Shown: one piece after another, positions 2,954-46,008 of the stretch
Numbering within the stretch: position 1 is the stretch's first letter
How the letters are laid out: every line of letters begins with the position of its first letter
From: Alphaproteobacteria bacterium
GTDB taxonomy: Bacteria > Pseudomonadota > Alphaproteobacteria > Elsterales > Elsteraceae
DNA: 46,008 bases
Assembly: GCA_004292755.1 (NCBI GenBank)
Contig: RDXE01000055.1
Location: 1-46,008 of the forward strand
Direction: 5' to 3'
Notes under the pieces: generated by a model
Told to the model about the DNA's origin: nothing
Database searches by the model: none
The model's input: the letters and a program-made list of their open reading frames with translations, nothing else
Program-made: the position numbers and the translations under genes

Positions 2954-2968
2954 GGGTTTGGAGAGACA

Positions 2969-3631
2969 ATGCGTACAGGGCCGTTTGACCCGCGGTTAGA
3001 GGATTTGCCGGCGACGGTGCCGGCATTCCCTCTCGCCAGTGTGTTGCTGCTGCCCCGGGGCAAGTTGCCCTTGCGCATCTTCGAGCCGCGATATCTGGCC
3101 ATGACGACCGATGCCTTGGCGACGCCCGATCGTCTGATCGTGATGGTTCAGCCCGTCGATCCAGACAGCCGTGCCAAAGTGCCGGAGGTGTATCGCACGG
3201 GCTGTGCGGGGCGCATCGTCTCGTTCTCCGAAACCGATGAGGGGCACTACCTTCTCACCCTGCAGGGCGTCATGCGGGTGGTGCTGGGCGATGAAATCCG
3301 CACCACGCGAGGCTATCGGCGCTTCTCAGCCGATTGGTCCGTGTTTGGCGAGGATTTGAAGCAGGGGCCAGTGGCGCTTGATCGCCAACGCCTGATCATT
3401 GGCTTGCGCCAGTACTTCCGCCTCCATGGCCTGTCCGCCAACTGGGACGCCATCGAAGAGACGGAGGAAGAGCGGCTGATCACCTCGCTCGCGATGATCT
3501 GCCCGTTCGAAGCCAACGAGAAACAGGCGCTGCTGGAGGCCACCACCGTGGAAGAGCGCGGACGGTTGCTGATTACCTTGATCGAGATGGCGCTGTTGCA
3601 GCACAAGGGCGGGGAGGCGGCGCGGCATTAG
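2969..3631 (+). CDS. LON substrate-binding-domain protein
   Basis: 220 aa, made almost wholly of the N-terminal substrate-binding domain of Lon protease, with no AAA or protease domain. Seen: the opening FPLASVLLLPRGKLPLRIFEPRY near residues 20-42, typical of this domain, then GCAGRIVSFSETDEGHY and a helical C-terminal half. Such stand-alone proteins are widespread in alphaproteobacteria and commonly follow the cnoX gene. Their function is not well defined; a role in protein quality control is inferred from context. It starts 15 bases after cnoX, preceded by GGAGAGA. Confidence 0.85.
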   Translation: MRTGPFDPRLEDLPATVPAFPLASVLLLPRGKLPLRIFEPRYLAMTTDALATPDRLIVMVQPVDPDSRAKVPEVYRTGCAGRIVSFSETDEGHYLLTLQGVMRVVLGDEIRTTRGYRRFSADWSVFGEDLKQGPVALDRQRLIIGLRQYFRLHGLSANWDAIEETEEERLITSLAMICPFEANEKQALLEATTVEERGRLLITLIEMALLQHKGGEAARH

Positions 3632-3667
3632 CCCTGGCCCGATGGTTGCCGCCCGAAGGAGCCTGCG

Positions 3668-3874
3668 ATGACTGACACGACATCTGATGCCCGCCCGACG
3701 GTTGATCCGAAGCTGTTGGACCTGCTGGTCTGCCCGTTGACCAAAGGCCCCTTGCGCTACGACGCCACTGCGCAGGAGCTGATTTCCGATCAGGCTGGTC
3801 TGGCCTATCCCATTCGCGATGGCATTCCAATCATGCTGGTGGACGAAGCCCGCAAGCTGGATGCAGCAGGTTAG
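3668..3874 (+). CDS. Trm112 family protein
   Basis: 68 aa. The core reads [14 protein letters not shown], then [20 protein letters not shown], the standard bacterial Trm112 (UPF0434/YcaR) pattern. Only one cysteine of the usual zinc pairs is visible, as in many bacterial members. Eukaryotic and archaeal homologues activate methyltransferases; the bacterial role is less clear. An AAGGAGCC ribosome binding site precedes the ATG. It sits between the LON-domain gene and a DUF971 gene, 2 bases from the latter. Confidence 0.9.
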
Positions 3875-19024: not shown

Positions 19025-19779
19025 GCCGCAACACCGCCGAGATACGCATCAATCACGCGTGAGTCGCGCTGCACGGCGTGCGGTGTTCCAGTGGTCAGAA
19101 TGCGACCCTGGGCCATGACCACCACGGGGTCACACAAGTCCGCAATCAAATCCATGTTGTGTTCAATGATCAGGAAGGTGACTCCCTGGGCGTTGAGGGC
19201 AGCGATCTTGTCGACCAGGACAGTCAACAACGTGGGATTGACGCCTGCGGCCGGTTCATCCAGCAGCACCAGACGGGGTTCCGCCATCATTACCCGCGCC
19301 AGTTCCAGCAATTTGCGCTGACCACCGGACAGCGTGCGCGCGGGGTCGCGTTCCACCCGTCCCAAGCCAACAAAGGCGATCAAGTGGCGCGCGCGCTCGG
19401 CCAGACGGCGTTCCTCGACGGCGATGCGGCCACGCAACAGCCAGTTGCGCCAGAACACTTCGCCCGCCTGGTTCTTGGCGGCGGTCATCACATTCTCCAG
19501 CACCGTCATCTCGGCGAAGGGGCGCGGAATCTGAAAAGTCCGGCCAAGGCCGAGGGCAGCGCGGCGGTGCGGGGGCAGATGGTGGATTGGCTGGTCGTCC
19601 AGCAAAATGGTGCCACTGGTCGGGGTCAAGGCACCCGCCAGCAGGTTGAAGCTGGTGGTTTTGCCCGCACCATTGGGGCCAATCAGCCCCGTGATGCGAC
19701 CGGCCTCCACATCCAGATCAATGCCGTCGACGGCGCGGAACCCACCGAACGCTCTGGTCAGCGCACGCGCTCGCAGCAT
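19021..19779 (-). CDS. livG: ABC transporter ATP-binding protein, LivG type
   Basis: 252 aa from the ATG at 19777-19779, chosen for its GGGGGGAG ribosome binding site; a start 33 bases upstream is less likely. Walker A GPNGAGKTTSFNLLAG, GLGRTFQIPRPFAEMTVLENVM (LivG-specific), signature LSGGQRKLLELARVM, Walker B LVLLDEPAAGVNP, and IEHNMDLI with the switch histidine. First gene of the minus-strand transporter operon. The promoter must lie in the 105-bp gap shared with the divergent DUF3830 gene. Confidence 0.92.
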   Translation of the reverse strand: MLRARALTRAFGGFRAVDGIDLDVEAGRITGLIGPNGAGKTTSFNLLAGALTPTSGTILLDDQPIHHLPPHRRAALGLGRTFQIPRPFAEMTVLENVMTAAKNQAGEVFWRNWLLRGRIAVEERRLAERARHLIAFVGLGRVERDPARTLSGGQRKLLELARVMMAEPRLVLLDEPAAGVNPTLLTVLVDKIAALNAQGVTFLIIEHNMDLIADLCDPVVVMAQGRILTTGTPHAVQRDSRVIDAYLGGVAA

Positions 19780-30948: not shown

Positions 30949-31245
30949 CTACGCCGCCAGCGGCTCGTGGGTTTGGCAGTTGGCGCCACAGACGGTGGAA
31001 CAGGCGTTGCAGCCGATGCAATTGCCCGGCTTGGCGACGGTCATCACCTTGCGGACAATGTCTTCATCATCGTCGAACGGGTCGACCAGGGCGCCATCGT
31101 CGTTGACGCCCATCAGTTGCAGCACGCTTTGGGGGCAGACCTTGAAGCACCGACCACAGCCGATGCAGCTGCCAGCGTCGATGGCGGTCAAGTAGCGCGG
31201 CGTCCAGGGGCTGCCGTCGCGGGTGCGGAAAGTGATCACGGTCAT
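30949..31245 (-). CDS. fdxB: Nif-associated ferredoxin (FdxB / ferredoxin III type)
   Basis: 98 aa. Two 4Fe-4S motifs: CIGCGRCFKVCP (Cys 27, 30, 33, 37) and CIGCNACSTVCGANC (Cys 76, 79, 82, 86, 90). The spacing between clusters and the GVNDDGALVDPFDDDEDIVRKVMTVAKPGN linker are those of the nif-specific ferredoxin III. Probably carries electrons for FeMo-cofactor assembly or to nitrogenase. The ATG at 31243-31245 overlaps the preceding stop by 4 bases. Last visible gene of the nif operon. Confidence 0.92.
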   Translation of the reverse strand: MTVITFRTRDGSPWTPRYLTAIDAGSCIGCGRCFKVCPQSVLQLMGVNDDGALVDPFDDDEDIVRKVMTVAKPGNCIGCNACSTVCGANCQTHEPLAA

Positions 31246-31445
31246 GATGCAGTCTCCAGCGCCTTCAATTCGGCGCGCTTGGCGGCAAGGGTGCGGAAGG
31301 CGTCGTAGGTTCTTTGCGCCACGTCGGGGATCTGCTCCCACGCGGCGGGCAATTCCTCCGACAGGTCGTGCAGCGCCATCTTGAGGTCGGTGGCGCGGGC
31401 ATTGAGCTTGCGGATTTCAGCTTTCAGGGCATCGACTTCGGCCAT
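31242..31445 (-). CDS. CCE_0567-family metalloprotein (Rop-like)
   Basis: 67 aa, almost entirely helical: LKAEIRKLNARATDLKMALHDLSEELPAAWEQI then VAQRTYDAFRTLAAKRAELKALE, a two-helix hairpin. This is the small nif-linked family PF05082, seen next to nifX-DUF269 in many diazotrophs. It binds metals in some members; its role is unclear. Overlaps fdxB by 4 bases and starts 16 bases after the DUF269 gene. Confidence 0.88.
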   Translation of the reverse strand: MAEVDALKAEIRKLNARATDLKMALHDLSEELPAAWEQIPDVAQRTYDAFRTLAAKRAELKALETAS

Positions 31446-31461: not shown

Positions 31462-31941
31462 TCACGCGTCAGCGACGTCGGGAAAGCGCTTCAGCATGCC
31501 GACGCCTTCGGCGACCAGCGCCTCGGTCTTGTTGGCCATGTCGGCGAAGCTGTCGAAGCCAAAGCGGTGAACATCGCGCAGGTGCTTGGACACCAGGATC
31601 AGCCGACCCGCCGTCAGCACCACGCGGCCAAACCCCTCGTGCGACAAGCGCAGCAGGGGGGAGGCAATGGTGCCGGTTTCCGCTTCAATCGCCATGCCGA
31701 TGGCGGCCCAATAGGTTTCGATGCGGAACAGCACCTTGCTGTCGGGGTCGCCCACCACCGGGATGGCGCGCCGCTCCGCCTTGGTGACGATGAACGGCTT
31801 CAGCACCTCGGCATCCGACTTTTTCTCCCACGCGCCATGGGTGTCGTGGGCGCGCATCTGGCGCACCAGCGCGCGGATCGCAGGCGACTGCAGGGCTGCC
31901 TCCTCCGCATCAACGGCGGCGGCGATGGGTTCGTCCAGCAT
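31462..31941 (-). CDS. NifX-associated nitrogen fixation protein (DUF269)
   Basis: 159 aa. Matches DUF269, with RALVRQMRAHDTHGAWEKKSDAEVLKPFIV near residues 22-51, PVVGDPDSKVLFRIETYWAAIGMAIEAETG and SHEGFGRVVLTAGRLILVSKHLRDVHRFGF. The family is restricted to nif clusters and nearly always lies next to nifX; its exact role in cofactor handling is not known. It follows nifX by 3 bases. Confidence 0.92.
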   Translation of the reverse strand: MLDEPIAAAVDAEEAALQSPAIRALVRQMRAHDTHGAWEKKSDAEVLKPFIVTKAERRAIPVVGDPDSKVLFRIETYWAAIGMAIEAETGTIASPLLRLSHEGFGRVVLTAGRLILVSKHLRDVHRFGFDSFADMANKTEALVAEGVGMLKRFPDVADA

Positions 31942-31944: not shown

Positions 31945-32421
31945 TCACTCCTCTTCAGCAACGAAGCCGGTACCGCTGGCCTGACGCATGGCCTTGCGCA
32001 GCCACGGCGGTGGGGAGCCGCCGAGCATCGCTTGAACGCGTTGGATCACGGCCTCAATCGGCTCTGGATTGGGCAGCTTCACGGGATGAATGCCTGCGGC
32101 CACAACTTTGGCGGCGGCCGGGCCACCAATGGCAGCGCAGAACAGCAGGGCGCAGCCCTTCAGCCCATCCACCTTCGGGGTGATCTTGTCCTCGCTATCG
32201 TCGTGCTTGCCGCTTTGGTCGGAGTGGCTGTCAAACTGCAGCGCTTCGACAAACCGGCTGGCGGTGGGCGAGATTTCCCACACCGAGAAGGTTTTCGTGC
32301 CGCCGAAATGGGCGTTGACGGTTTTCAGGTCCGTCGTTGCGAAGGCAATGGTCAAGGCACCCGCCAGCGGTTCGCTGGACGGAGCCTCCGTGTCAACCAA
32401 CTGAAGCCGGCGCAGAGCCAT
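31945..32421 (-). CDS. nifX: NifX, FeMo-cofactor biosynthesis protein
   Basis: 158 aa from the ATG at 32419-32421. The NifX/dinitrogenase-iron-molybdenum-cofactor-binding fold: LTIAFATTDLKTVNAHFGGTKTFSVWEI near residues 23-50 and LKGCALLFCAAIGGPAAAKVVAAGIHPVKL near 88-118. NifX carries the NifB-derived cofactor precursor to NifEN. It begins 29 bases inside nifN, so the two are coupled. The C-terminal stretch after the fold is a typical NifX tail. Confidence 0.93.
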   Translation of the reverse strand: MALRRLQLVDTEAPSSEPLAGALTIAFATTDLKTVNAHFGGTKTFSVWEISPTASRFVEALQFDSHSDQSGKHDDSEDKITPKVDGLKGCALLFCAAIGGPAAAKVVAAGIHPVKLPNPEPIEAVIQRVQAMLGGSPPPWLRKAMRQASGTGFVAEEE

Positions 32422-33769
32422 GGTCGCTCTCCTCCCGAGGGGCGTGGGTGTGCAAGGTGTCGAACGCCTCGCCATCCTGTTCCTGGAACGCATTGGCAAG
32501 GCGGAAGATCAAATCGCGCGTTCCGCGATAGCCAGCCGTAACCACATGGGCGGCACCCAGGCGGTCGAAGATTGGGAAACCGAGGCGGAACAAGGGAATG
32601 CCCGTGCGCTCTGAGGCTTGGCGGGCGTGGGACGGGCCAATGATCAAATCGCACCCAGCCGCCCGGTCCTCCAACTCGCCAAGATCGCTGACCAACACCT
32701 CGGCACAGGGCAATTGCGCCAGATACTCTTGTCCGAGCGTGGTAGGCACCACCACAGGGCCGAGCCCGGCGCCCAGATCCGCCAGCAGGCGCCCAACCGC
32801 CCAGACCAGATCGCCCTCGCCCGCGAGCGCCACTTGGCGACCACCGAAGTGGAAGTGCCCATCCAGCATGGCATCCAGCAACTGGCTGCGCTGGCGGCGC
32901 ACCCGGGGCGGTGCGGGCACGCCCGCCATGTCGGACAGGAACGACACCAGCCGGTCGACGGCACTGAGCCCGGTGACCCGGTCGAACAATTGGTAGGGCA
33001 CGCCGGTCAGCCGCTCCAAGGCTGCAGCGGGGGCCTGCATCGCACTGCCCAGCGCAATGGCAACTTGGGCGGAGCCAAGGGTGCGTAGCTCCTCCAGCGT
33101 CGTGCCGCCGAGGCTGCCCTGAATCCACTCCCCTGGCACATGCCCGTCGAGGGAGCGCGAGAGGTCGGGCACCACCACGGGCGTGAGACCAAACGCCTCG
33201 ATCAACTGGGTCAACTCGTCAATGTCGCCTGCCGTGATGTGGCTGCCGGGCAGCACGGCGACGCGACCCTTCCGGCGCAGCCGGGGACCCGGCTCCACCA
33301 CTTGCTCAATCAGCGCGGTGACGGCTTTGGCCCAGCCTTCGGACAAGCCGCCAACCATGTCGGGGGTGGAGGCCAGCACCAGGGCGGTGTTGGCAAGGTC
33401 GGGATTGCGTCGGCGGATCAGGGCAAGGTCGCCCATGAAATCCTCGCCCCGTGTCTCGGCCAAGCCAGTGGTGGCGATGCCAATCAGCTTGGGCTGGGCA
33501 CGCTTGGCAAGGTTCTGGATTGCTTGCTCCAGATTGTCCATACCGCCCAGGATCGCTGTGATCTCGGTCAGGGCGGTGGTCTGCAGCGGGATTGCCTCTT
33601 TGAAGTGGCGCACCAGCAGCACCATGCCAAAGGCTGTGCAGCCCTGGCTGCCATGGAACAACGGCATGGTCCGCTCGACACCCAGAAAGGCCATCGCTGC
33701 ACCCAGCGGGGCAGAGGACTTCAAGGGATTGACGGAGACCGGGCGAGAGCGACGGATGATCTCGGCCAT
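32393..33769 (-). CDS. nifN: Nitrogenase cofactor scaffold subunit NifN
   Basis: 458 aa. VSVNPLKSSAPLGAAMAFLGVERTMPLFHGSQGCTAF at residues about 11-47 aligns with the NifK/NifN opening, with one cluster Cys (SQGC) present; the equivalent first Cys of NifK is replaced by Ser (LKSS), as usual in NifN. With NifE it forms the tetramer on which the FeMo-cofactor matures. It starts 3 bases after the NifE stop. Confidence 0.96.
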   Translation of the reverse strand: MAEIIRRSRPVSVNPLKSSAPLGAAMAFLGVERTMPLFHGSQGCTAFGMVLLVRHFKEAIPLQTTALTEITAILGGMDNLEQAIQNLAKRAQPKLIGIATTGLAETRGEDFMGDLALIRRRNPDLANTALVLASTPDMVGGLSEGWAKAVTALIEQVVEPGPRLRRKGRVAVLPGSHITAGDIDELTQLIEAFGLTPVVVPDLSRSLDGHVPGEWIQGSLGGTTLEELRTLGSAQVAIALGSAMQAPAAALERLTGVPYQLFDRVTGLSAVDRLVSFLSDMAGVPAPPRVRRQRSQLLDAMLDGHFHFGGRQVALAGEGDLVWAVGRLLADLGAGLGPVVVPTTLGQEYLAQLPCAEVLVSDLGELEDRAAGCDLIIGPSHARQASERTGIPLFRLGFPIFDRLGAAHVVTAGYRGTRDLIFRLANAFQEQDGEAFDTLHTHAPREESDHGSAPASVG

Positions 33770-33772
33770 GGC

Positions 33773-35173
33773 TCATGCCTCCCCTTCATCGGACCAGTCG
33801 GCATCCCAGGGGGCTGGGCTGCGCACGGCTTGCCAAACGGGGTTGGCAATCGACAAATCCACCCGGTGAGCGAATTCGACAATGCCGTCGTACCCGGCAT
33901 AGGCGAAGTGGCGCTCCTGATTGACGTCAATCCAGGGGGCTTTGGCTTTCAGGGCGACGAATTGGCTGCGACCGCCGGACATCAGAATGTCGGCCTCGCC
34001 GGTGGACAGCATGCGGAACATTTCCTTGGCGGGGATGTCGTCCACCATGGCGTCGGAGCCGACTAGGTCGATCACCCGCTCCTTATCCTCTACCGTGGCT
34101 TTGCGGACGGAGGTTTTCACCACCTCCATGCCCAACTCCTGCACGGCTGAGACCATTGACCAGCTCTTGTGGCCGCCGGTGTAGACCAGGGCCTTCTTGC
34201 CCGTCAGGCGGGGCAGATACGGGCCAAGGCGCCGCCACGCGCGGGCAGCCCCCTCGGCTGTAACCGCCTCGGCGCGGGTCAGCAGGGCAGGGTCGGCGCC
34301 GCGCTCCACACACAGGCGGGCCATGGTCACAATGGCGTTGGTGGTGTCGGCGATGCCGTAAAAGCTGCCCTCAAACCAGGGGATGCCCCAGCGCTCTTCC
34401 ATGGTGCGGGCGACGTTGATCATCGCCTGGCTGCACACCATCATGTTGACGCGGGCCCGGTGGGCGCCTGCGACATCGCGATAGCGGGCATCGCCCGTGA
34501 TGCAGGCCTGGACGCGCAGGCCAATCGCCTCCAGCAGCGGCTTCACCTGCCACAACTCGCCAGCAAGGTTGTAGTCGCCGATGATGTTGATGTCCGCGTC
34601 GGTCGAAACCTCCGGCTCCATCGTGCCGATCACGTGCTTCAGCAGGGTTTCGCCGCCAAGCCGATTGCCCAGGTTCTTGGTGCCGACCATGCCGGGTGCA
34701 TTGACCGGGATCACCGGCGTGCCGAACTTCAGCGCCGCTGCCTTGCACACGGCTTCGACATCATCGCCAGCCAGGGCTGGCACACAGGTTTGATAGACAA
34801 AGACAGCAGCTGGGCTGTGTCGTTCAATCACTTGGCGAATGGCTTTGTAGAGTTTCTGTTCGCCGCCATGGATCACGTCCAGGTCGGTCAAGTCGGTGGT
34901 CACGCCCAAGCGATAGAGCTGGGGACCAGAGCTGAAGGCGTGGCGATTATCCCAGCCATTGCCTTCGCAGGCGATGGGTGCATGAACCAGATGGATGGCA
35001 TCAACAATGGGCTGAAGGGCGATCTTGGCGCCATCAAAGGCACAGCCGCCAGCAGCGGCACCGGGTGTCAGCGCCTTGACGCTGCACCCTTTCTTCTTTT
35101 CGGCGGCCGACTTGGCCCGATTGGTGGGGCAGGCCGGTTCTTCGAAAACAGAGGCAAGCGTGTCGGTCAGCAT
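33773..35173 (-). CDS. nifE: Nitrogenase cofactor scaffold subunit NifE
   Basis: 466 aa from the ATG at 35171-35173 (GGGGGA upstream); a TTG 18 bases earlier is less likely. GGCAFDGAKIALQPIVDAIHLVHAPIACEGNGWDNRH near residues 42-79 holds the cluster cysteines, and VFVYQTCVPALAGDDVEAVC the third. NifE lacks the alpha-subunit His that ligates FeMo-co in NifD. Sits after nifK across a gap with a strong hairpin; no own sigma-54 promoter was found there. Confidence 0.96.
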   Translation of the reverse strand: MLTDTLASVFEEPACPTNRAKSAAEKKKGCSVKALTPGAAAGGCAFDGAKIALQPIVDAIHLVHAPIACEGNGWDNRHAFSSGPQLYRLGVTTDLTDLDVIHGGEQKLYKAIRQVIERHSPAAVFVYQTCVPALAGDDVEAVCKAAALKFGTPVIPVNAPGMVGTKNLGNRLGGETLLKHVIGTMEPEVSTDADINIIGDYNLAGELWQVKPLLEAIGLRVQACITGDARYRDVAGAHRARVNMMVCSQAMINVARTMEERWGIPWFEGSFYGIADTTNAIVTMARLCVERGADPALLTRAEAVTAEGAARAWRRLGPYLPRLTGKKALVYTGGHKSWSMVSAVQELGMEVVKTSVRKATVEDKERVIDLVGSDAMVDDIPAKEMFRMLSTGEADILMSGGRSQFVALKAKAPWIDVNQERHFAYAGYDGIVEFAHRVDLSIANPVWQAVRSPAPWDADWSDEGEA

Positions 35174-35217
35174 GGCAGTCCCCCGACGCAATGCGGAACG
35201 AATGACGGACCAGCCGT

Positions 35218-35255
35218 GGCACCCCCCACCACCCAGACAAGTGGTGGGGGGTGCC
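35218..35255 (-). terminator. 15-bp perfect hairpin between nifK and nifE
   Basis: GGCACCCCCCACCAC (35218-35232) and GTGGTGGGGGGTGCC (35241-35255) are exact inverted repeats around an 8-nt loop. No T-run follows on the nif strand, so partial termination, RNA processing or 3'-end protection of nifHDK mRNA are all possible. Any of these would set NifEN below NifHDK. Confidence 0.75.
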
Positions 35256-35263
35256 GGGTCGGC

Positions 35264-36814
35264 TTAGCGGGTCAGGTCGTAGCTGATGTCCGTGACGCCG
35301 GGGATGATGGTGTTGGCGTCCAGGGCATCGAAGATCTTGTCCAGCAGCGCCACCAGCACGCGCAGGCCGCCTTGATAGCCGAAGGTCGGGAAGCGGTGGT
35401 GGTGATGACGGTCGAAGATCGGGAAGGTCAGGCGGATCAGCGGAATGCCGAGGTCGCGCTCCAGATACTTGCCGTAGCTGTTGCCGATCAGCAGTTCCGT
35501 CGGCTCGGTCGCGAGGATCGAGCGCAGCGCCCACAGGTCCTTGCCTTGCCACACCTGCGCTTGCGCGCCGAACGGCGAGGTGGCCAGCAGTTCCTTCATC
35601 TTGGCTTCCCAGGCCTTGGTGCCGTTGGTTGCCAGCACGTGGCGCGGCTCGGCCCCCAGCTCCAGCAGGAACTCGGTCATGCCATAGACGAAGTCAGGGT
35701 CGCCATAGATGGCAAAGGTGCGGCCATGCAGGTAGGCTTGGCTGTCTGCCATGGCGTCAACCAGACGACCACGCTCCAGCGTCAGCTGATCCGGGATGTC
35801 CTTGCCGGTGATCGCCGCCACCTTCATCAAGAAGCGGTCGGTTGCCGCCACACCCATCGGGTAGTGGAAGGCAGCCACGTCCTGACCTTTGCCAGCGATG
35901 TACTCCAGGGTCTTTTCCGTGCAGTACTGCTGCAGGGAAATCGTGCCCTGGGCGTGCAGCGCAGTCTTGGTCTGCTCGATGGTGGTGCCACCAGCATACA
36001 TGCGGAACTGACCATCGGATGGCGTGTCATAAACATCCGAGACGTCGGACAGCACGGTGTAGCTGACACCCATCAGGTCGAGCATCCGCTTCATCTCGCG
36101 GATGTTCGCTGGCGCGTAGCCGTCAAAGCCCGGGATGATATTGACGGAATGGCTCATCTGGTCGACGGGCTTACGCTCGTCGGTCTGCCAGAAGTGCTCG
36201 AGAATGCCCTTGATCGCCACGTCGTAGCCATTGACATGGCTGCCAACGAACGCCGGGGTGTGGGCGTAGGGCACGTGATAGTCTGCCGGGACCGACCCTT
36301 TTTCCTTCGCCGTCTTGATGAAGGAATTCAGGTCTTCACCGATGACTTCAGACATGCAGGTGGTCGAGACGGCGATCATCTCCGGCTTGTACAGCGCGTA
36401 GGTGTTGGCCAGACCATCCACCATGTTGTTCAGGCCGCCGAACACTGCAGCGTCTTCCGTCATCGAGGAGGAGACGGCCGACGACGGCTCCTTGAAATGG
36501 CGGGACAAGTGCGAGCGATAGTACGACACGCAGCCTTGCGAGCCATGGACGAACGGCATGGTGCCAGCGAACCCTTGGGCGGCGAACACCGCACCCAGTG
36601 GTTGGCAAGCCTTCATCGGGTTGACCGACAGCGCCTCGCGAGCCAGGTTCTTTTCGCGATAGTCCCAAGACTTGGTCCAATCGGCGACTTCCGTCACACG
36701 CTCATCGGTGTGACCGCACTCGAACGCGGCCTTCTTGGCCTTCAACATCTCACGATATTCCGGCTCGTGGAACAGCGTGACGTGATCCTTCACCTTTTCG
36801 GCGGACTGGGGCAT
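35264..36814 (-). CDS. nifK: Nitrogenase MoFe protein beta chain
   Basis: 516 aa from the ATG at 36812-36814. P-cluster cysteines are in [11 protein letters not shown] (Cys 70), [13 protein letters not shown] (Cys 95) and [13 protein letters not shown] (Cys 153), with the usual spacing, and the N-terminal extension ([20 protein letters not shown]) is present, as in Mo-nitrogenases of group I. Forms the alpha2-beta2 protein with NifD in the cytoplasm. It follows nifD by 77 bases. Confidence 0.98.
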
Positions 36815-36891
36815 GGGTCGTCTCCACGCGGCGGGGAAGCGCTTACCGCTCCACACCGCCGCTTCAGGGGAACTGGCGGGCTGCCTGGCTG

Positions 36892-38355
36892 TTACGCGGC
36901 CTTCTTCCAAGGCGCGTCAAAGCGGCTCCACACCGGGTTGTTGATGGCAAGGTCCATATCGCGTGCGAAGATCGCGAACCCGTCATAGCCGTGGTATGGA
37001 CCGGAGTAGTCCCACGAGTGCATCTGACGGAACGGGATGCCCATCTTCTGGATCGGATACTTCTCCTTGATGCCGGAGCCGACCAGATCGGGGCGCACGC
37101 CTTCGACGAACTTCTCCAGCTCATAGCCAGTGACGTCGTCGTAAATCAGCGTGCCTTCCTTCACGTAGTGACCAGTGCGCTGGTAGTCGTCAGCGTGGGC
37201 GAACTCGTAGCCCGTGCCGGCGATTTCCATGCCCAGATCGGTGTAGGCATTGACCACGTGCCGCGGACGCAGGCCGCCGACATACAGCATCACGGTCTTG
37301 CCTTGCAGCCGTGGCTTGTACTTCTCGATCACTGCATCGACCAGACCTTGGTATTTCGCGATCACAGCCTCAGTCTTTTCGACAATCGTCTTGTCGAAAT
37401 GAGCCGCAATGGCGCGCAGCGACTTGGCGATCTGGGTCGGGCCGAAGAAGTTGTACTCCACCCATGGAATCGAGTACTTCTCTTCCATGTGACGGCAGAT
37501 GTAGTTCATCGACCGGTAGCAGTGGATCAGGTTCAGCTTGGCCTTCGGCGCGCGCTCCATCTCGGCCAGGGTCGCGTCACCCGACCAGGCACCGATCACG
37601 CGCAGGCCCATTTCTTCCAGCAGAATGCGGGAGGACCAGGCATCGCCACCGATGTTGTAGTCGCCAATCAGGTTGACGTCGTAGGGGGTGCTCTCCCACT
37701 CGATCTCCTTCTTGTCGAACACATAGTCCCGGATCGCGTCGTTCGCGATGTGGTGACCAAGCGACTGGGAGACACCGCGGAAGCCTTCGCAGCGCACCGG
37801 CACGATGGTGGTGTTGTGCTCCTTGGCCTTCTTCTTCGACACCGCCTCGATGTCGTCGCCGATCAGGCCGATTGGGCACTCAGACTGCACCGAGATGCCG
37901 TTCGCCAACGGGAACAGCTCTTGGATTTCGTCGATGATCTTTTCCAGCTTCTTGTCGCCACCGAACACGATGTCCTTTTCTTGGAAATCGGAGGTGAACT
38001 GCATGGTGACGAAGCTGTCGCCACCGGTCTTGCCGATGTAGTAGTTGCGGCGTTGCGACCAGGAGTAGTGACCGCAGCCAACCGGACCGTGGCTGATGTG
38101 GACCATGTCCTTGATCGGACCCCACACCACGCCCTTGGAACCGGCGTAAGCACAGCCACGGATGGTCATCACACCGGGAACCGACTTCACGTTCGACTTG
38201 ACGTCGCAGGCGGTGCCTTCGCTGTCATTCTCGTCCGCTTCGGCCACGTTCAGGTGCTTGGCGCGCCGCTTCTTGGCCTTGTCTGGGTAGGCGGCCAAAA
38301 CCTCTTCAATCAGTTTGCGATGCCGTTCGGCATCAGCCTTGAAATCGCCGTCCAT
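36892..38355 (-). CDS. nifD: Nitrogenase MoFe protein alpha chain
   Basis: 487 aa from the ATG at 38353-38355, preceded by AAGGAGTG. P-cluster ligands: Cys 68 (IRGCAYAG), Cys 94 ([10 protein letters not shown]) and Cys 160 ([12 protein letters not shown]). FeMo-cofactor ligands: Cys 279 ([19 protein letters not shown]) and His 446 ([16 protein letters not shown]). Val and Arg residues around the cofactor look normal, and the protein is the molybdenum type, not VnfD or AnfD. Catalyses N2 reduction with NifK and NifH. Confidence 0.98.
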
Positions 38356-38402
38356 GGGACACTCCTTGGGAGGGGCGGAAGGAGGGGGGCGGAAGGGGAA
38401 AG

Positions 38403-38426
38403 GCGGGGCGGCCAAAGCCGCCCCGC
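38403..38426 (-). other. Hairpin between nifH and nifD
   Basis: GCGGGGCGGC (38403-38412) and GCCGCCCCGC (38417-38426) form a perfect 10-bp stem around a 4-nt loop, 10 bases after the nifH stop. Hairpins at this place in other diazotrophs stabilise the nifH mRNA end and help raise NifH over NifDK; that role here is inference. Confidence 0.7.
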
Positions 38427-38435: not shown

Positions 38436-39398
<963 letters not shown>

Positions 39399-39403: not shown

Positions 39404-39418
39404 GCAAGCGCCGTGCCA
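39404..39418 (-). promoter_or_regulatory. Sigma-54 (RpoN) promoter of nifH
   Basis: The minus strand reads TGGCACGGCGCTTGC: TGGCAC (-24) and TTGC (-12) with the fixed 5-base spacer, matching the consensus exactly. It implies a start near 39393 and a leader of about 70 nt before nifH. Confidence 0.9.
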
Positions 39419-39472: not shown

Positions 39473-39510
39473 GGTCAGATGCCGCAGGGGGTTTCGCACG
39501 GCGTCCGCCC

Positions 39511-39526
39511 TGTCCCAAACCCGACA
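39511..39526. promoter_or_regulatory. NifA upstream activator site, proximal
   Basis: TGT-N10-ACA exact match (TGTCCCAAACCCGACA), about 125 bp upstream of the expected nifH start, in the usual window for NifA. Confidence 0.8.
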
Positions 39527-39552
39527 AACCCCCGACACCCACCCGACATGAC

Positions 39553-39568
39553 TGTTCGGAGCAGAACA
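39553..39568. promoter_or_regulatory. NifA upstream activator site, distal
   Basis: A second exact TGT-N10-ACA (TGTTCGGAGCAGAACA), 42 bp from the proximal one, which is close to four helical turns, so both would lie on one DNA face. It overlaps a small dyad (CAGAAC-agc-GTTCTG, 39562-39576). Confidence 0.75.
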
Positions 39569-39604
39569 GCGTTCTGTCAGACAGGCCTAGTCCTGCCCAT
39601 CATT

Positions 39605-39762
39605 TGTGTGAGACGACACCGGATTTGTCCGCGGCGGGCGAGGCGGGATATTCGGGGATTTTGTGAGACATACCGGGATGTTAGCGCAGCGGAACGGGGG
39701 TAGAGCGGACAAAAGGCCAGTGGTCGGAAATCGGACACCAACGACACGCTTTTGTCCAACGG
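39605..39762. repeat. Putative transposase-binding repeats at the phage left end
   Basis: Three related blocks: TGTGAGACGACACCGG at 39607-39622 followed by TTTGTCC (39624-39630); TGTGAGACATACCGGG at 39662-39677; and ACGACAC (39741-39747) with TTTGTCC (39751-39757). GCGGACAAA at 39705-39713 is the inverse of 39624-39632. Multiple unevenly spaced end repeats are typical of Mu-type L1-L3 sites. Confidence 0.65.
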
Positions 39763-39781
39763 CGCCAAAACCCCACAAAAG

Positions 39782-40174
39782 CTACCCGGCTTGAGCCTGC
39801 TTGATCGCGAAGCGAACGAGGGCGGGTATCTCGGAGGGCGATGCAGCGGAGGCCATGATTTGCTCGTAAGCTTTCAGCGCCGCCGCTGCGGGATCCGGCG
39901 CGTTTGCCATACCAGCGTGGAGTTCGAGGAGGACTGCTGGCTCGGCCACCACCGGGCCGCGTTGCGGCCCCTCGCCCGTCATCAGCCAGTGCAGCGATAC
40001 ACCGGACAGCTCGGCAACGCGTGCAACGAAGAGGGCACCTGGCTCGGCTTCCGCGGCGCGGTAGCGCCGGAGCGTCTGGCGGTTCACCGCGAGTTCTATG
40101 GCAGCGAGCCGTTCAGACGGCCAGTGGTGCAGCGCCAAATCTAACCGCGCCGCCAGCGCGCGCAGCTCAATCAT
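39782..40174 (-). CDS. Mu-like phage repressor (c-type), HTH protein
   Basis: 130 aa from the ATG at 40172-40174, which has GGGGGAG upstream. The N-terminal part is a helix-turn-helix (LAAIELAVNRQTLRRYRAAEAEPGALFVARVAELSGVSLHWLMTGEGP, residues about 19-66), the same layout as XRE-type repressors of transposable phages. The rest is Ala-rich and helical, likely for oligomerisation. It is divergent from the Ner-like gene, as c is from ner in Mu, and is read towards nifH. Expected to hold the phage silent. Confidence 0.75.
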   Translation of the reverse strand: MIELRALAARLDLALHHWPSERLAAIELAVNRQTLRRYRAAEAEPGALFVARVAELSGVSLHWLMTGEGPQRGPVVAEPAVLLELHAGMANAPDPAAAALKAYEQIMASAASPSEIPALVRFAIKQAQAG

Positions 40175-40266
40175 ATTGCTCCCCCAGTGGCATTGTTTTC
40201 CCAGTTGCCAAACCCCAGAATTGGTATAAAAATGGTGCCAGAACACAATAAACCGTGGTTGGAAAA
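40175..40266. promoter_or_regulatory. Divergent operator/promoter region of the phage
   Basis: 92 bp between the repressor and Ner-like genes, AT-richer than the surroundings. It holds TGGCA (40188-40192), TTGCCA (40205-40210) and GGTGCCA (40234-40240), which are mutually inverted, and an AT-rich -10 candidate (TATAAAAAT from 40225) for the early operon. The minus strand has TATACC-like sequence for the repressor. Likely binding sites for both regulators; not proven. Confidence 0.55.
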
Positions 40267-40581
40267 ATGTCTCGGCAGCCACCGCAATGGGACCGATACA
40301 GCATCATCGCCGAGCTGGGGCGGCGAGGCCTCACGCTCAGCGGTGTCGCGGAACAGGCTGGTTTGAAGCCGCGCACGTGCTCGCTGGCGCTCACGCATTC
40401 GACGCCAAAAGGCGAGCGAGCCTTGGCCGATGCGTTGCAGGTAGCCCTTCATGAACTCTTCCCGGATCGCTGGAGCGAGAGCGGTCAACGTCTGCTGCGG
40501 CGCGGTCGACCAAGAGGCCAAAAGCATAGCCATTCGCGCCAGAAGTGCACCTTAACCACAGTTAATCGGATCGCATCATGA
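40267..40581 (+). CDS. Ner/Nlp-family phage regulator
   Basis: 104 aa from the ATG at 40267 (a GTG 12 bases earlier is possible). WDRYSIIAELGRRGLTLSGVAEQAGLKPRTCSLALTHSTPKGERALADALQVALHELFPDRW is the Ner/SfsB (Nlp) helix-turn-helix, residues about 8-70. The C-terminal 30 residues are basic and extend beyond Ner of Mu. In Mu, Ner represses early and repressor transcription. It overlaps the transposase gene by 4 bases (ATGA). Confidence 0.88.
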   Translation: MSRQPPQWDRYSIIAELGRRGLTLSGVAEQAGLKPRTCSLALTHSTPKGERALADALQVALHELFPDRWSESGQRLLRRGRPRGQKHSHSRQKCTLTTVNRIAS

Positions 40582-42311
40582 TCCGGAGGGTGGCTTACAC
40601 GGGGGCCAGGCACCCCAGTCTGCCTGCTCTCGCTGGATCGAAAAATAACCCGCTCGCCGTCCGTGAAGCGCGCGAAGTGATCCTGGCACTCATTGACACC
40701 ATGGCCCTTGAGCAGGGGCCGGTTGCGGCGCGCCAAGCATTTGTGGCGGCGGCGCAGTCTGGCAGACTGCCATCTGACACGCTGGCGACCCTGGCAAAAG
40801 CCAACGCCAAGCCCAGCTCGTCGCGCACAGTGTCGGAGCGCACGTTGCTCCGCTGGCAACAGGCGCGGGAAGCAGCAGCACTCGCGCCGCGCCCGACCCC
40901 GCAGCAGCCGGTGCCAGTTTGGCTCGACGACATCCTCGCCGAGTATCAAGTCCCCACGAAACCATCGCTGGCAGACGCCTACGCTGCCTGCGCGCGGCGG
41001 GGTGTGGTCCTGCCGAGCCTGCGGACGGTGCAGCGCGAAGTGGCACAGCTCGGAGAGTTGGCGCGCAATCGCGGACGCATGGGCCAGCGCGAACTGCGGC
41101 GGCTGAAAGCCTTCCGCAAGCGCACGTTCGAGGACCTGCTGCCTCTCGACGTGGTCAGCGCCGACGGTCACAGGTTCCAGGCAGAAGTGGCGCACCTTAT
41201 CCACGGCAAGGCGTGCCGACCAGAGCTCACGGCGGTGATCGACGTCGCCACACGCCGCGTGCTGGGTTGGTCAGTCGCGCTTGATGAAGCCGCGTCGGCT
41301 GTTCGCGATGCGCTTGTCCAGGCAGTTAAACACGGTGTGCCCGCGATCTGGTACACCGACAACGGCCCGGGCTACGTGGCGGCCGAAACGCTCGCGACCC
41401 TCAGTCGCCTGGGTACTACCGCGACCAACTCAATCGCCTACAACGCTCAAGCGCGCGGCGTGGTGGAGCGGCTGAACGCCACCCTGTGGATACCGCTCGC
41501 CCGGCGCTTCGCCACCTTCCAAGGTGATGAGATGGATCGCGAGGCGCGCCAGCGGGCCTTCCGTCTGACACGGCAAGACGCGAGCCGCCTGATGCCATGG
41601 CAGAGCTTCTGCACAGTGGTCGCGGACGCCGTCGCCACCTACAACGCGCGCCCACACAGTGCGCTGGGTCATCGCTCGCCAGATCAGGTGTGGGCAAGCT
41701 TTTGCCAGAACGGCTGGGAGCCGCTGCTGCTCACCGAGGCCGAGCTGGTCGACCTTGGGCGGCCCAGCGCCCGCCGCGTGGTGAACCGAGCGACCATCGC
41801 GCTACACGGCCACACCTATCACTCGCTCGAGTTGGAGCGTCTGGATCTGCACGGACGTGAAGTCGATGTGCGGTTTGACCCAATCGACCCCGAGCAAGTC
41901 TGGGTGTTCGATGATCAAGGTCACTTCCTAACACTCGCGCATCGAGATGCGCACGCAAGGCCGTACTTTCCAGCGTCTTTCGTGCAGCAGGCACAGGAAA
42001 GGCGGGCACAGGGAAAGGTTAAGCGTCTGCGCACGAAGGTAGACAAAGCTCTATCCGAGTTATCACCGCCAACAATTACGGCTGAAGCCACCAACGTTAC
42101 ATCGCTCGCCTTGGCGCCAGCTGAGCTCTCAGACGCCGAAAAGCAAAACCAACGCTGGGCAGAGGCGCAGGCAATCCAGGCCGCAATGGATCGTGGTGAG
42201 GCTGTGAGTGACGCGGATCGGCTGTGGCTGGGGCGTTTACAGGGGGTGGCTTGGTACCGCGCGCGGATGCGGCTCGAGCTGGAGCGCGGCGCGCTGCGCG
42301 CACACGAGTAG
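40578..42311 (+). CDS. Mu-type DDE transposase
   Basis: 577 aa. Residues about 1-180 hold DNA-binding helices; the RNase H-like core follows with catalytic Asp 196 (VVSADGHRF), Asp 261 (WYTDNGPGY) and Glu 297 (GVVERLN), a spacing of 35 residues between the last two. The DNA-binding beta-barrel (about 395-450) and a charged helical tail that contacts the MuB-like ATPase complete the Mu A layout. Catalyses phage-end cleavage and strand transfer. All catalytic residues are present, so it may be active. Acts on the end repeats near 39605. Confidence 0.95.
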   Translation: MIRRVAYTGARHPSLPALAGSKNNPLAVREAREVILALIDTMALEQGPVAARQAFVAAAQSGRLPSDTLATLAKANAKPSSSRTVSERTLLRWQQAREAAALAPRPTPQQPVPVWLDDILAEYQVPTKPSLADAYAACARRGVVLPSLRTVQREVAQLGELARNRGRMGQRELRRLKAFRKRTFEDLLPLDVVSADGHRFQAEVAHLIHGKACRPELTAVIDVATRRVLGWSVALDEAASAVRDALVQAVKHGVPAIWYTDNGPGYVAAETLATLSRLGTTATNSIAYNAQARGVVERLNATLWIPLARRFATFQGDEMDREARQRAFRLTRQDASRLMPWQSFCTVVADAVATYNARPHSALGHRSPDQVWASFCQNGWEPLLLTEAELVDLGRPSARRVVNRATIALHGHTYHSLELERLDLHGREVDVRFDPIDPEQVWVFDDQGHFLTLAHRDAHARPYFPASFVQQAQERRAQGKVKRLRTKVDKALSELSPPTITAEATNVTSLALAPAELSDAEKQNQRWAEAQAIQAAMDRGEAVSDADRLWLGRLQGVAWYRARMRLELERGALRAHE

Positions 42312-42365
42312 GGCCGCCTGTTGGCGCAGGCGGCCCCGAAACAACTCAACGATGATGGTGTTCAG

Positions 42366-43124
42366 ATGACACAACTTGATGACCGGCACAAGGCACAAAT
42401 CGCTGACCTGACCAACGTGAAGCTCGGCCTTGCAGTGGCGGAGCGTATCGTGCGGCGGAAGCCGACCCTACCGGGCTTGGGCGTGCTGCACGGCCCCCCA
42501 GGTTACGGCAAGAGCAGCGCCTGTTCGCGCATCGGCGCGATGTTTCAAACCGCTTATTTGTCAGTAAAACCACTGTGGACGATCAATGGATTTCTAGGCG
42601 CATTATGCGCGGAACTCTGCGTGCGAGCCCCGAACAGCAAGGATGGACGGTTCGAGGCAGCGAAAGAAGCTCTGTTGTCTGGCCCTAATCTGCTGATGCT
42701 CGATGAGGCTGATCATCTCTGCCATGGCAAGATGCCAGTCATTGAGTTTGTTCGTACACTGAGTGACGAAACCGGCATCGCAATACTGCTGGTCGGCGAA
42801 GAAACACTGCCCGATCTTCTGCGCCGCTGCAGTGGCCGCACGTACAGCCGCGTGTTGCAGTGGCAACCGGCTCAACCCTGCACAGTAGAGGACGCGCGAG
42901 CACTTGCTGCGCTATACTGCCCTGCTCTCACGCTGGCGGATGACCTGATCAGCGAGATTGTCGCCAAAACCCACGGCGTCACCCGCCTTGTCGCGGTGAA
43001 CCTGGACACCATCGGCGAGACAGCGGCGACGGAACGCTGGGACCGGGTCGATTTGCGCAAGTGGGGTGCAGCCAAGATCATGACCGGCGCAGCCCCTGCC
43101 GCGCGGCGGGCGGTGCGAGCATGA
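42366..43124 (+). CDS. MuB-like AAA ATPase, target-site protein
   Basis: 252 aa from the ATG at 42366; the frame extends 45 bases further upstream. Walker A GVLHGPPGYGKSSACSRIG near residues 38-56, Walker B NLLMLDEADHLC near 110-121, sensor region IAILLVGEETLPDLLRRCSGR. The same family as MuB and the TniB/TnsC ATPases that select target DNA and stimulate the transposase. It lacks the N-terminal DNA-binding HTH of MuB, being shorter, as in many Mu-like phages. The stop overlaps the next gene by 4 bases. Confidence 0.9.
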   Translation: MTQLDDRHKAQIADLTNVKLGLAVAERIVRRKPTLPGLGVLHGPPGYGKSSACSRIGAMFQTAYLSVKPLWTINGFLGALCAELCVRAPNSKDGRFEAAKEALLSGPNLLMLDEADHLCHGKMPVIEFVRTLSDETGIAILLVGEETLPDLLRRCSGRTYSRVLQWQPAQPCTVEDARALAALYCPALTLADDLISEIVAKTHGVTRLVAVNLDTIGETAATERWDRVDLRKWGAAKIMTGAAPAARRAVRA

Positions 43125-43429
43125 CCGCGCTGACCTCCAAGCGCGGGGCGGTCGTCGCCGCTCTGCGCGCGGCGCCACAGGGACTAACGCTCCGCCAAGT
43201 GGCGGAGGCAGTCGGGCGCTCCATCCCCGCTGCGCGACGGCACTTGGCGGACCTGCAACAGGAGGGCGTGGTCACCATCGGCGCGATCCCCCTGGCTGCC
43301 CGCACGTTTCGGTTGCCGGATACCACGCCCGCGCTCTCGCCGCAGCTTCTGCCGGTCTATGAAGCCGCAGCACGCCTGCCGCAGCCTTTGCGGCGCGCTG
43401 GTGGTCGCCACACCTGCGATCAGTGGTGA
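43121..43429 (+). CDS. Small phage winged-helix protein
   Basis: 102 aa from the ATG at 43121, overlapping the stop of the ATPase gene (ATGA). KRGAVVAALRAAPQGLTLRQVAEAVGRSIPAARRHLADLQQEGVVTIGAIP is a winged-helix DNA-binding pattern (residues about 6-56). No known phage family recognised. Probably regulates early or middle phage genes. Confidence 0.7.
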   Translation: MTALTSKRGAVVAALRAAPQGLTLRQVAEAVGRSIPAARRHLADLQQEGVVTIGAIPLAARTFRLPDTTPALSPQLLPVYEAAARLPQPLRRAGGRHTCDQW

Positions 43430-43832
43430 GCAGCGCGTGGTCTGGAGCCTCGCTGAGGGTGTGCGAGCGCCACCGCCGCCCAAAAATCATCTGCAGCCCG
43501 CGGCACAGCGGCTGTGGGGGGCGATGCGCCCTCTGCGGCGTCCGTTCTTGCTGGCTGAGTTGGCTGGGCTTGCCTGTGTGAGCCACCGGACCACGGCTGC
43601 CTATATCGGAGCGCTGGCAGGTGCGGGGGTTGTGCGGTGTGTCCAGCCAGCTCTGCGCGGGCGGCCAGCCCGATACGAGCTGGCGCGCGACCTCGGAATG
43701 GTCGCCCCCTCCTTTGTCCGCGACGAAACCGGCGCGCGGGTGCTCCGCGACAACAATCCGCAGCTTGGCACCACAGCGGCAGCCTTGGCGGCAGTGGTGG
43801 CAGCACCATCGGTGCGCGGGAGGGCGGCATGA
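43359..43832 (+). CDS. Small phage protein with HTH-like segment
   Basis: 157 aa if started at the ATG at 43359, but that overlaps the preceding gene by 71 bases; a GTG at 43437 (132 codons) avoids this and may be right. Residues about 62-100 (RPFLLAELAGLACVSHRTTAAYIGALAGAGVVRCVQPALRGRPARYEL) look like a second winged helix with a family resemblance to the previous protein. The function is unknown. The stop overlaps the next start (ATGA). Confidence 0.65.
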   Translation: MKPQHACRSLCGALVVATPAISGEQRVVWSLAEGVRAPPPPKNHLQPAAQRLWGAMRPLRRPFLLAELAGLACVSHRTTAAYIGALAGAGVVRCVQPALRGRPARYELARDLGMVAPSFVRDETGARVLRDNNPQLGTTAAALAAVVAAPSVRGRAA

Positions 43833-44149
43833 CCACCGACCCCGCGCTGCAACTTGCCGTTGCCGCCAAGGTGCAGGCTATCGGCGTGCGACGATTGGCA
43901 AAAGACGCGGGCGTGAGCCCGGCGACCGTGAGCCTGATCGCGCGCGGTGTTTATCCAGCGCTGGCGGATGGTCGCGCCATAGCGCTGCTGCGCAAGCACT
44001 TGGCGCCCCCCCCGATTGAGTGCCCGGTGCTGGGTGCGATTACGCCAGAACGCTGCCGCCAGCTGTCCACGCGCCCCTCCGGCGTGCCTGGCCCGACGGT
44101 GCAAGCACTGATGGCGCGCTGCCCGACCTGCCCACGGAGGTGTCGATGA
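43829..44149 (+). CDS. Phage HTH protein with Cys-rich tail
   Basis: 106 aa from the ATG at 43829. Residues about 12-45 (VQAIGVRRLAKDAGVSPATVSLIARGVYPAL) form a Cro/LacI-like helix-turn-helix. The C-terminal part holds ECPVLGAITPERC and CPTCPRRC, six cysteines in paired spacing that suggest a zinc site. Possibly an early phage regulator. No family assigned. Overlaps both neighbours by 4 bases. Confidence 0.7.
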   Translation: MTTDPALQLAVAAKVQAIGVRRLAKDAGVSPATVSLIARGVYPALADGRAIALLRKHLAPPPIECPVLGAITPERCRQLSTRPSGVPGPTVQALMARCPTCPRRCR

Positions 44150-44382
44150 GTATCGCCTCAGACCTTCGCAGCATCGCGACAGATCTCGAGTGGATGGTGG
44201 TGGATCGCTCCATCGACGAGGACCGTTTGGTGCGTTTTGCGAACGAGCTGGCGCAGATGGCGGACGACATGGACGCCTTCGTGGCGCGGTTCTGCGCGCC
44301 CGCGCCCGCGCCCGTCTCCGCCGATGCCACAGTCGTGAGCTTGGACGCCTTTCGCGCCGCCAGGACCGGAGGCCAGCGATGA
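44146..44382 (+). CDS. Small phage hypothetical protein
   Basis: 78 aa from the ATG at 44146 (CGGAGG upstream), overlapping both neighbours by 4 bases. Acidic and helical (IASDLRSIATDLEWMVVDRSIDEDRLVRFANELAQMADDMDAFVARF) with a Pro/Ala tail. No family recognised. Confidence 0.65.
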   Translation: MSIASDLRSIATDLEWMVVDRSIDEDRLVRFANELAQMADDMDAFVARFCAPAPAPVSADATVVSLDAFRAARTGGQR

Positions 44383-44600
44383 TTGAGATCGCGGGCTGCC
44401 CGCCCGCACCGGTCGCTATCGCTGGAGCTGATCCAGCGCTGCGCGAGGCGCTGGATCAAATTTTGGCGTTCGAGGCGCAGGGATTGGATCCCTTCGATGC
44501 TCTCGAGGCGCTGAACCTTCGCTGGATCGGCCTGGGGCGACCTCATTGGGCCGATCTCGTGCAACCGCTGGTCACTATGATCAGGGCCATGCGGCCATGA
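44379..44600 (+). CDS. Small phage hypothetical protein
   Basis: 73 aa from the ATG at 44379. Short hydrophobic-acidic protein (PALREALDQILAFEAQGLDPFDALEALNLRWIGLGRPHWADL). No signal peptide and no recognised family. Translationally coupled on both sides by ATGA overlaps. Confidence 0.6.
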   Translation: MIEIAGCPPAPVAIAGADPALREALDQILAFEAQGLDPFDALEALNLRWIGLGRPHWADLVQPLVTMIRAMRP

Positions 44601-44740
44601 TCGCCCGTCTCATCTCATGGTTGCGCTCGCGCAACCCCCGCGCCCCCACCCGCTGGCACAACGCAGGTGTGGGTCGGGTCATTCTGGCCGACCGGCTGTT
44701 CGGCGGCCAGCCACGCATCACCTCCAAATGGAAGGATTGA
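44597..44740 (+). CDS. Very small basic phage protein
   Basis: 47 aa from the ATG at 44597, overlapping the preceding stop. Basic (LISWLRSRNPRAPTRWHNAGVGR); nothing recognisable. It could be a real early phage gene because the overlap pattern continues through it. Confidence 0.5.
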   Translation: MIARLISWLRSRNPRAPTRWHNAGVGRVILADRLFGGQPRITSKWKD

Positions 44741-44742
44741 CC

Positions 44743-45417
44743 ATGCCAGACGGCATCCAGATACCCGAAGGCTACATGCGAGACCATCGCGGTGACCTCA
44801 TCGCTGTGAAAAACATCAGGCCGATTGATCTTCTCGAGACGCAGACAGTCGACAAGATTATCGGCCACGCACTGGAACTCCGCGACCGTATTCATCGGTT
44901 CTACTTCCACTCAATCGACGATATTGATGCCTTCTTGAAGCTCGCCGCAGAGAAATACAATGCCAAGCGCGGCGGCAAAAAGGGCAATCTTGTCCTAACC
45001 TCATTCGATGGCCTGCGCCAAGTACGCCTGCAAGTGCAGGAGCGGGTAACGTTTGGTCATGAGTTGCATGCGGCCAAGGTGTTGATCGACCAGTGTCTTT
45101 CCGAATGGTCGGAGGGTGCCAACGATCACCTGCGTGCCGTGGTCAACCATGCTTTCCGCGTGGATAATGACAATCAACTCAATGTCTCGGCGATCCTCGA
45201 TCTGCTGCGGATGGAAATTGCTGATCCTACCTGGCAGCGCGGGCGCGAGGCATTGAAGGACAGTCTCCGCTCGATTGGCACGAGCAGCTACATGCGCTTC
45301 TACCAGCGGCAGCCAGGCGGAAAGTGGCAGGCGATCAGCATCGACATTGCGAACGCCGCGATCCGCCGCGACCACGCGGAGCAAACCTCCGAGGCGGAGG
45401 GCGGCTCCGATGAGTGA
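44743..45417 (+). CDS. DUF3164 family phage protein
   Basis: 224 aa from the ATG at 44743 (GAAGGATTG upstream). YMRDHRGDLIAVKNIRPIDLLETQTVDKIIGHALELRDRIHRFYFHSIDDIDAFLKLAAEKYNAKRGG (residues about 11-79) and FDGLRQVRLQVQERVTFGHELHAAKVLIDQCLSEW match DUF3164, a family found in the early region of Mu-like phages. The function is unknown. It sets the phage apart from IS elements that carry only transposase and ATPase. Confidence 0.85.
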   Translation: MPDGIQIPEGYMRDHRGDLIAVKNIRPIDLLETQTVDKIIGHALELRDRIHRFYFHSIDDIDAFLKLAAEKYNAKRGGKKGNLVLTSFDGLRQVRLQVQERVTFGHELHAAKVLIDQCLSEWSEGANDHLRAVVNHAFRVDNDNQLNVSAILDLLRMEIADPTWQRGREALKDSLRSIGTSSYMRFYQRQPGGKWQAISIDIANAAIRRDHAEQTSEAEGGSDE

Positions 45418-45709
45418 CATGCTCGCGATCGCAGCCTCCGGCCGCCGGTATGTGGTCGTGATGGACCAGTTGCAGCGGCACGGCATCAAGCTCGCCGAGG
45501 ATATCCGCGCGGCAATGCTGGCAGCAGACGAGTGGAACGCCGCATACCGGATTGGCACGGTTGTCACAGTAAACGAAGGCTTCCGGAGCGGCCAGACCGC
45601 CACAAAAGCGTTCGTGTCCGCGGCGCAGCGGTGCGCAGTGGTCCAACTGGCCCATCAGCTGGACCTCGTGCCCGTCTCTACGCTCACAGTGCTGGAGCCA
45701 GCGCCATGA
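45410..45709 (+). CDS. Small phage hypothetical protein
   Basis: 99 aa from the ATG at 45410, overlapping the DUF3164 stop by 8 bases. Mixed alpha/beta with no recognised motif (SGRRYVVVMDQLQRHGIKLAEDIRAAMLAADEWNAAYRIGTVVTVNEGF). The stop overlaps the next start by 4 bases. Confidence 0.6.
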   Translation: MSDMLAIAASGRRYVVVMDQLQRHGIKLAEDIRAAMLAADEWNAAYRIGTVVTVNEGFRSGQTATKAFVSAAQRCAVVQLAHQLDLVPVSTLTVLEPAP

Positions 45710-45993
45710 GCCCGGTGCAGCAGCTGGACCTGCTCACCGAGGCTCGCCGCGAGGCGTTGGCGCGCGGGCGGCGGCCACCCGCCGCGCGTGACCTGCTGAA
45801 GCAGTCTGCTGCAGTTCCACCGCCAGCCCCGGCGTCGCCGGGGCTGGCCCCCCTGGCCCCCACAGGTTCTCCCTCCCCGGTTGAGACGCTGAAAGCGGTT
45901 CTCGCACAGTGCGAGGCCGCTCGCGTGCCGGTGAGCGACATCTTGTGGCTCACCTACCAAGGCGAGCCCCTCGTGTACCAGGCACGGGAGTAA
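45706..45993 (+). CDS. Small phage hypothetical protein
   Basis: 95 aa from the ATG at 45706. A Pro/Ala-rich middle (AAVPPPAPASPGLAPLAP) links a charged N-terminal helix to a short C-terminal motif (VSDILWLTYQGEPLVYQ). No family recognised. Confidence 0.6.
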   Translation: MSPVQQLDLLTEARREALARGRRPPAARDLLKQSAAVPPPAPASPGLAPLAPTGSPSPVETLKAVLAQCEAARVPVSDILWLTYQGEPLVYQARE

Positions 45994-45996
45994 ACG

Positions 45997-46008
45997 ATGG
46001 TAGATAGC
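45997..46008 (+). CDS. Start of next phage gene (cut by window end)
   Basis: ATG GTA GAT AGC follows the previous stop by 3 bases, in keeping with the tight early operon. Only four codons are visible, so nothing can be said of its product. Confidence 0.35.

Follow-up and report, generated by a model that had tools for sequence, protein, structure and literature searches.

A Mu-like prophage probably inserted between two divergent NifA-controlled nif operons in an alphaproteobacterium of the Elsteraceae

What became of the DNA upstream of a nitrogenase operon when a Mu-like phage came to lie beside its activator sites, and what would control nifH now? The question is raised by one contig (C68) of a draft genome in 95 contigs; the contig in its entirety, 46,008 bp, is the window analysed here. 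A preliminary description made from the window had proposed that the phage took the place of the original upstream DNA, possibly the usual divergent nif gene, and puts nifH next to phage control DNA. The nif genes of the window are as follows.

38436-39323, minus strand: nifH (295 aa), 85–95% identical to NifH in nearly all alphaproteobacterial nif loci
32393-38415, minus strand: nifD, nifK, nifE and nifN, downstream of nifH
31945-32499, after nifN: nifX (NCBIfam nifX)
31462-31941, after nifX: NifX-associated protein (TIGR02935)
30949-31341, after the NifX-associated protein gene: fdxN (NCBIfam fdxN)

The genes nifE, nifN, nifX, TIGR02935 and fdxN were assigned by NCBIfam, nifD by its position and reading frame; NifK as query retrieved NifK from 80 loci at 68–76% identity. 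The nifA gene of the same genome lies on contig C83. We looked for a phage-free relative with which to compare the locus, and nifH was absent from all eight family members examined (several of these genomes are incomplete, and one holds only a 40% identical NifH relative); the upstream DNA described below was not found in 59 relatives. The nif genes have been either acquired by this lineage or widely lost in the family, several of whose genomes, as said, are incomplete.

Control elements at nifH were scored with the patterns TGGCAC-N5-TTGC for sigma-54 and TGT-N10-ACA for NifA.

39404-39418, minus strand: sigma-54 −24/−12 promoter of nifH, TGGCACGGCGCTTGC, the sole exact match in the window
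39511-39526: proximal NifA upstream activator site, exact match to TGT-N10-ACA
39553-39568: distal NifA upstream activator site, exact match to TGT-N10-ACA

Across the window, exact NifA motifs are no commoner than chance predicts (5 against an expected 6.2), and hence only their position makes them meaningful. Two fall within the 283 bp next to nifH, where about 0.04 would be expected, and an exact −24/−12 element adjoins them; from the motif counts, a chance origin of this arrangement is very unlikely. In most relatives the NifA sites of nifH lie at −149 to −228, a range contained in the segment kept here. The nifH side thus has the −24/−12 element and upstream TGT-N10-ACA sites of a NifA/sigma-54 nif promoter, and the full control set, an exact promoter and two exact activator sites, is intact on the host side, as first described. 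The phage begins 38 bp beyond the distal NifA site and 283 bp from nifH, which refines initial estimates of 36 and about 280 bp.

The presence of a Mu-like prophage just past the NifA sites was confirmed by family searches, which identified the following features.

39607-46008, plus strand: left 6.4 kb of the Mu-like prophage, the rest being on contigs C94 (7,819 bp) and C47 (1-19217)
39782-40171, minus strand: phage repressor (c-like, HTH; PHROG 3037/2328 transcriptional repressor), pointing at nifH
40267-40581, plus strand: Ner-like regulator (PF13693 HTH_35, PHROG 769)
40578-42311, plus strand: transposase A, 577 aa (PHROG 310, PF00665 rve, PF09299 Mu-transpos_C)
42321-43124, plus strand: MuB-like DNA transposition ATPase (PHROG 296, AAA), adjoining A
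44617-45417, plus strand: DUF3164 protein (PF11363, PHROG 846), with homologues in the Mu-like phages RS1 and vB_PeaS-P1

A DDE transposase with rve and Mu C-terminal domains, an adjoining MuB-type ATPase, a divergent repressor/Ner pair at the left end, and Mu-like head, portal and tail genes lying to the right of the early genes place the element among Mu-like phages. The catalytic core of transposase A is intact, its D, D and E residues being visible in the alignment. The protein lacks an N-terminal region (at least ~60 aa) found in A of D3112 and RcapMu; in Mu A, the N-terminal region is the part that binds the internal enhancer.

The remainder of the phage was sought by probing the other contigs with proteins of D3112, RcapMu, RS1 and vB_PeaS-P1. 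C94 encodes a terminase-like gene, portal, F and the N-terminal half of the head protease, and gp36 and G were located on C47. Family searches of C47:1-19162 added the major head protein, tail sheath, tape measure, baseplate proteins and a Dam-type methylase. The protease gene is split between contigs, with RS1 residues 16-153 matched at the end of C94 and 166-236 at the start of C47, the second a weak match (E 0.004). Because transposase A and portal are each present in one copy in the genome, the simplest reading is a single prophage of at least 33.4 kb across C68, C94 and C47. The link between C68 and C94 is drawn from gene order and single copy, the contigs being unjoined with a few kb of early genes missing between them: we found no contig with the early genes that should lie between DUF3164 and the endolysin-terminase region, which appear to be absent from the assembly, and no overlap of the window end with any of the contigs searched.

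On C47 the phage DNA runs into host nif genes within one contig.

C47:19217: right end of the phage
C47:19353-19368 and 19370-19385: iscA-side NifA sites, exact TGT-N10-ACA
C47:19432: iscA-side sigma-54 site, exact
C47:19482-19805: iscA, pointing away from the phage
C47, between iscA and nifV: nifU (305 aa) and nifS, pointing away from the phage
C47:22088-23176: nifV, pointing away from the phage

The iscA side also has the elements of a NifA/sigma-54 nif promoter. Contrary to what had been supposed from the window alone, the upstream DNA was therefore not lost, because the iscA-nifUSV operon with its own promoter sits across the phage. The final gene before the phage right end is that of the DNA (adenine) methyltransferase (Dam-type; C47:18272-19162).

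The exact ends were then defined by the terminal sequences and their flanks. The right end and 5-bp target duplication called for in the preliminary description were both found, with ATTTG repeated directly after C47:19217.

39602-39606 and C47:19218-19222: left and right copies of the target-site duplication ATTTG, identical 5-bp flanks
39607-39630, plus strand: left terminal site TGTGAGACGACACCGGATTTGTCC, 14/24 identical to the inverted right end TGTCGCGCGCCACGTTTTTTGACC
39662-39685, plus strand: second, related end-type repeat TGTGAGACATACCGGGATGTTAGC, a repeat of the left terminal site and probably a transposase site

The two junction regions contain 126 possible TG...CA end pairs, and only 39607/C47:19217 has identical 5-bp flanks. 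Such matches are expected 0.15 times by chance; the duplication taken alone is not far from chance. The same pair ranks first of the 126 in 40-bp end similarity (21/40) and second at 24 and 30 bp. The element thus combines TG...CA ends with a 5-bp target duplication, and we take its left end to be 39607. The earlier placement at about 39605 was close; the ATTTG flanks and TG...CA ends shift it by 2 bp, since a start at 39605 is flanked by TCATT with no right-hand match after a CA. A left end at 39662 gives a flank match of 4 bp only, and right ends past the hairpin described below (for example, a CTGCC match near C47:19335) correspond to left starts other than TG. In the 2.4 Mb of genome searched, each end-repeat core is found a single time. 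Mu prefers CYSRG targets (PMC5977238), and ATTTG lies outside this preference, a small point against, though the transposase here is only ~37% identical to that of D3112.

With the phage taken out, the two flanks join into an intergenic region of 543 bp that separates divergent nif operons. Most probably, a Mu-like phage inserted here by ordinary transposition, between two divergent NifA-controlled operons, and duplicated ATTTG. The phage would have transposed into the spacer between the leftward nifHDKEN(X) operon and the rightward iscA-nifU-nifS-nifV operon, duplicating its 5-bp target on integration. The site before insertion would read ...CCCATC-ATTTG-CCCCACTCC..., with a single ATTTG, or, with a longer left flank, ...GCCCATC-ATTTG-CCCCACTCCC.... 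The insertion point lies outside both activator clusters: it is separated by 38 bp from the distal NifA site of nifH and by 130 bp from the first on the iscA side, the latter distance counted from the right-hand ATTTG, after duplication. Each operon retains its sigma-54 promoter and a pair of NifA sites at the usual short distances; as far as motifs can tell, the insertion splits two complete modules and deletes neither. Activation by NifA and sigma-54 is local, acting from sites roughly 100–150 bp from the promoter, so the two halves should work without each other. The insertion was probably tolerated because both modules are complete; both operons are predicted to remain under NifA control, and a near-neutral effect may be why the insertion is seen at all. 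Also counting against simple insertion are the unjoined contigs and the rarity of divergent nifH/iscA genes in relatives, which makes rearrangement possible.

How unusual the arrangement is can be judged from other nif loci. Among 80 from named genomes, those in which iscA was found nearly always have it on the nifH strand and downstream of that gene. The only divergent, adjacent iscA/nifH pair among the named-genome nifH loci examined is in Mesorhizobium sp. M00.F.Ca.ET.216.01.1.1 (L057), whose two genes stand back to back with 480 bp and TGT-N10-ACA sites between them; that iscN(A)-nifH region is phage-free and its spacer differs in sequence from the one here. We saw no such pair in 10 other genomes of the class that carry nif genes. 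The divergent nif gene first offered as one possibility upstream of nifH came close, the operon being iscA-nifUSV, but this adjacency is rarer among relatives than "usual" implied, and the arrangement is natural but uncommon.

This rarity bears on an alternative in which the phage mediated a rearrangement: its two junctions would stem from separate events (recombination between two copies, inversion or adjacent deletion), iscA-nifUSV would have been moved beside nifH, and the ATTTG match would be fortuitous. Most relatives in which iscA was found have it downstream of nifHDKEN, on the same strand and ~8–12 kb away, and the chance expectation for the flank match is the 0.15 given above. Yet the pair with matching flanks is also the best by 40-bp similarity, the phage is present as one copy only, and each flank holds a whole promoter module, the two lying back to back as they would in a divergent spacer that predates the phage, a configuration exemplified in Mesorhizobium. 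We consider rearrangement unlikely. Because of the ATTTG duplication, a divergent arrangement ancestral to the insertion is favoured over one linked to the phage.

A further possibility concerns what the prophage does rather than how it arrived: it may have been co-opted as a functional regulatory input, with read-through from the repressor promoter driving nifHDK without NifA, or with paired phage ends holding the activator clusters together. The repressor is transcribed toward nifH, and a scan of its strand found no terminator-like site between the two genes; from gene orientation, NifA-independent read-through into nifH in the sense direction is possible. At the right junction, the phage late operon and the Dam gene face iscA across a strong host hairpin. 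Prophage Mu in E. coli has paired ends, and the pairing extends 5–10 kb into flanking DNA (PMC3820752); if this held here, by analogy, the nifH and iscA promoters would remain spatial neighbours. Neither promoter seems to lack anything in the phage's absence, so no extra input is needed, which makes such a role improbable. We give still less credence to its fullest form, a prophage that is not silent, whose end pairing keeps the nif activator clusters together while repressor read-through gives basal, NifA-independent and lysogeny-linked nifHDK transcription. The view that nifH is put beside phage control DNA holds with reservation: what lies closest to nifH is the 3′ end of the repressor gene, and ~0.85 kb separates nifH from the repressor/ner control region. 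Lastly, a chimeric assembly misjoining phage and nif DNA is conceivable in a 95-contig draft with breaks inside the phage, but the phage is joined to nif DNA on two separate contigs, one at each of its ends, and the junctions share a 5-bp duplication and phage-type ends, so we regard it as highly improbable.

Simple insertion between divergent operons makes the locus a natural insertion experiment, in which at least 33 kb of phage DNA lies between two divergent NifA/sigma-54 promoters, each with its own sites. If both operons still answer to NifA, the two halves are autonomous; if they no longer do, shared elements or phage transcription matter. The event is an ordinary insertion of a transposing phage in an unusual place, and a clean natural experiment rather than a new mechanism. 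The cross-contig junction also recovers DNA that a reading of the single window took as lost. None of the titles and abstracts retrieved in a literature search concerned a prophage at nifH.

From protein comparisons, the phage is a divergent member of the known Mu-like kind, with no close phage relative found and a best identity of 42% for A, seen in a genome relative. Viral contigs yielded no relative above 37% identity for A and none for B or the head protein, and the search for phage relatives gave no exact match to the end repeat. With Pseudomonas phage D3112 (Casadabanvirus) it shares a leftward repressor at the left end, rightward Ner, A and B genes (A ~37%, B ~33–36% identical) and a related head/portal module. 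It differs in the shortened A, in a Mu-type contractile tail (sheath, baseplate) in place of the D3112 type, and in the Dam-type methylase at the right end. Rhodobacter phage RcapMu and Rhodovulum phage RS1 have a Mu-like gene order and homologous portal, F and A/B genes; RS1 also shares the protease and DUF3164, and RcapMu has short end repeats beginning TGT. Both differ in end sequences, which are unrelated past the first bases, in protein identity (25–56%) and in having another tail module.

Directly at the right junction, between the late genes and iscA, is a strong host hairpin of ~45 bp (C47:19218-19267) with a folding energy of −45.5 kcal/mol (73-nt stretch) and the target at its base. 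Insertion hotspots of Ab30-type phages in P. aeruginosa lie beside repeated REP-like palindromes, 55–61 bp away (PMC5977238). The likeness is that in both cases a transposable phage has a palindrome near its insertion site; the hairpin here, unlike those, is immediately at the target, and no copies of it were seen in the genome parts searched, so that a similar palindrome link is only suggestive. Elsewhere in the genome, contig C12 (L188) carries at 4-3733 a long array of 30-bp repeats (about 55, 22 and 28 copies; GGCACTCCGCCGGCTGGCGATCCGCCGGGT), which if translated would give a proline/glycine-rich repeat.
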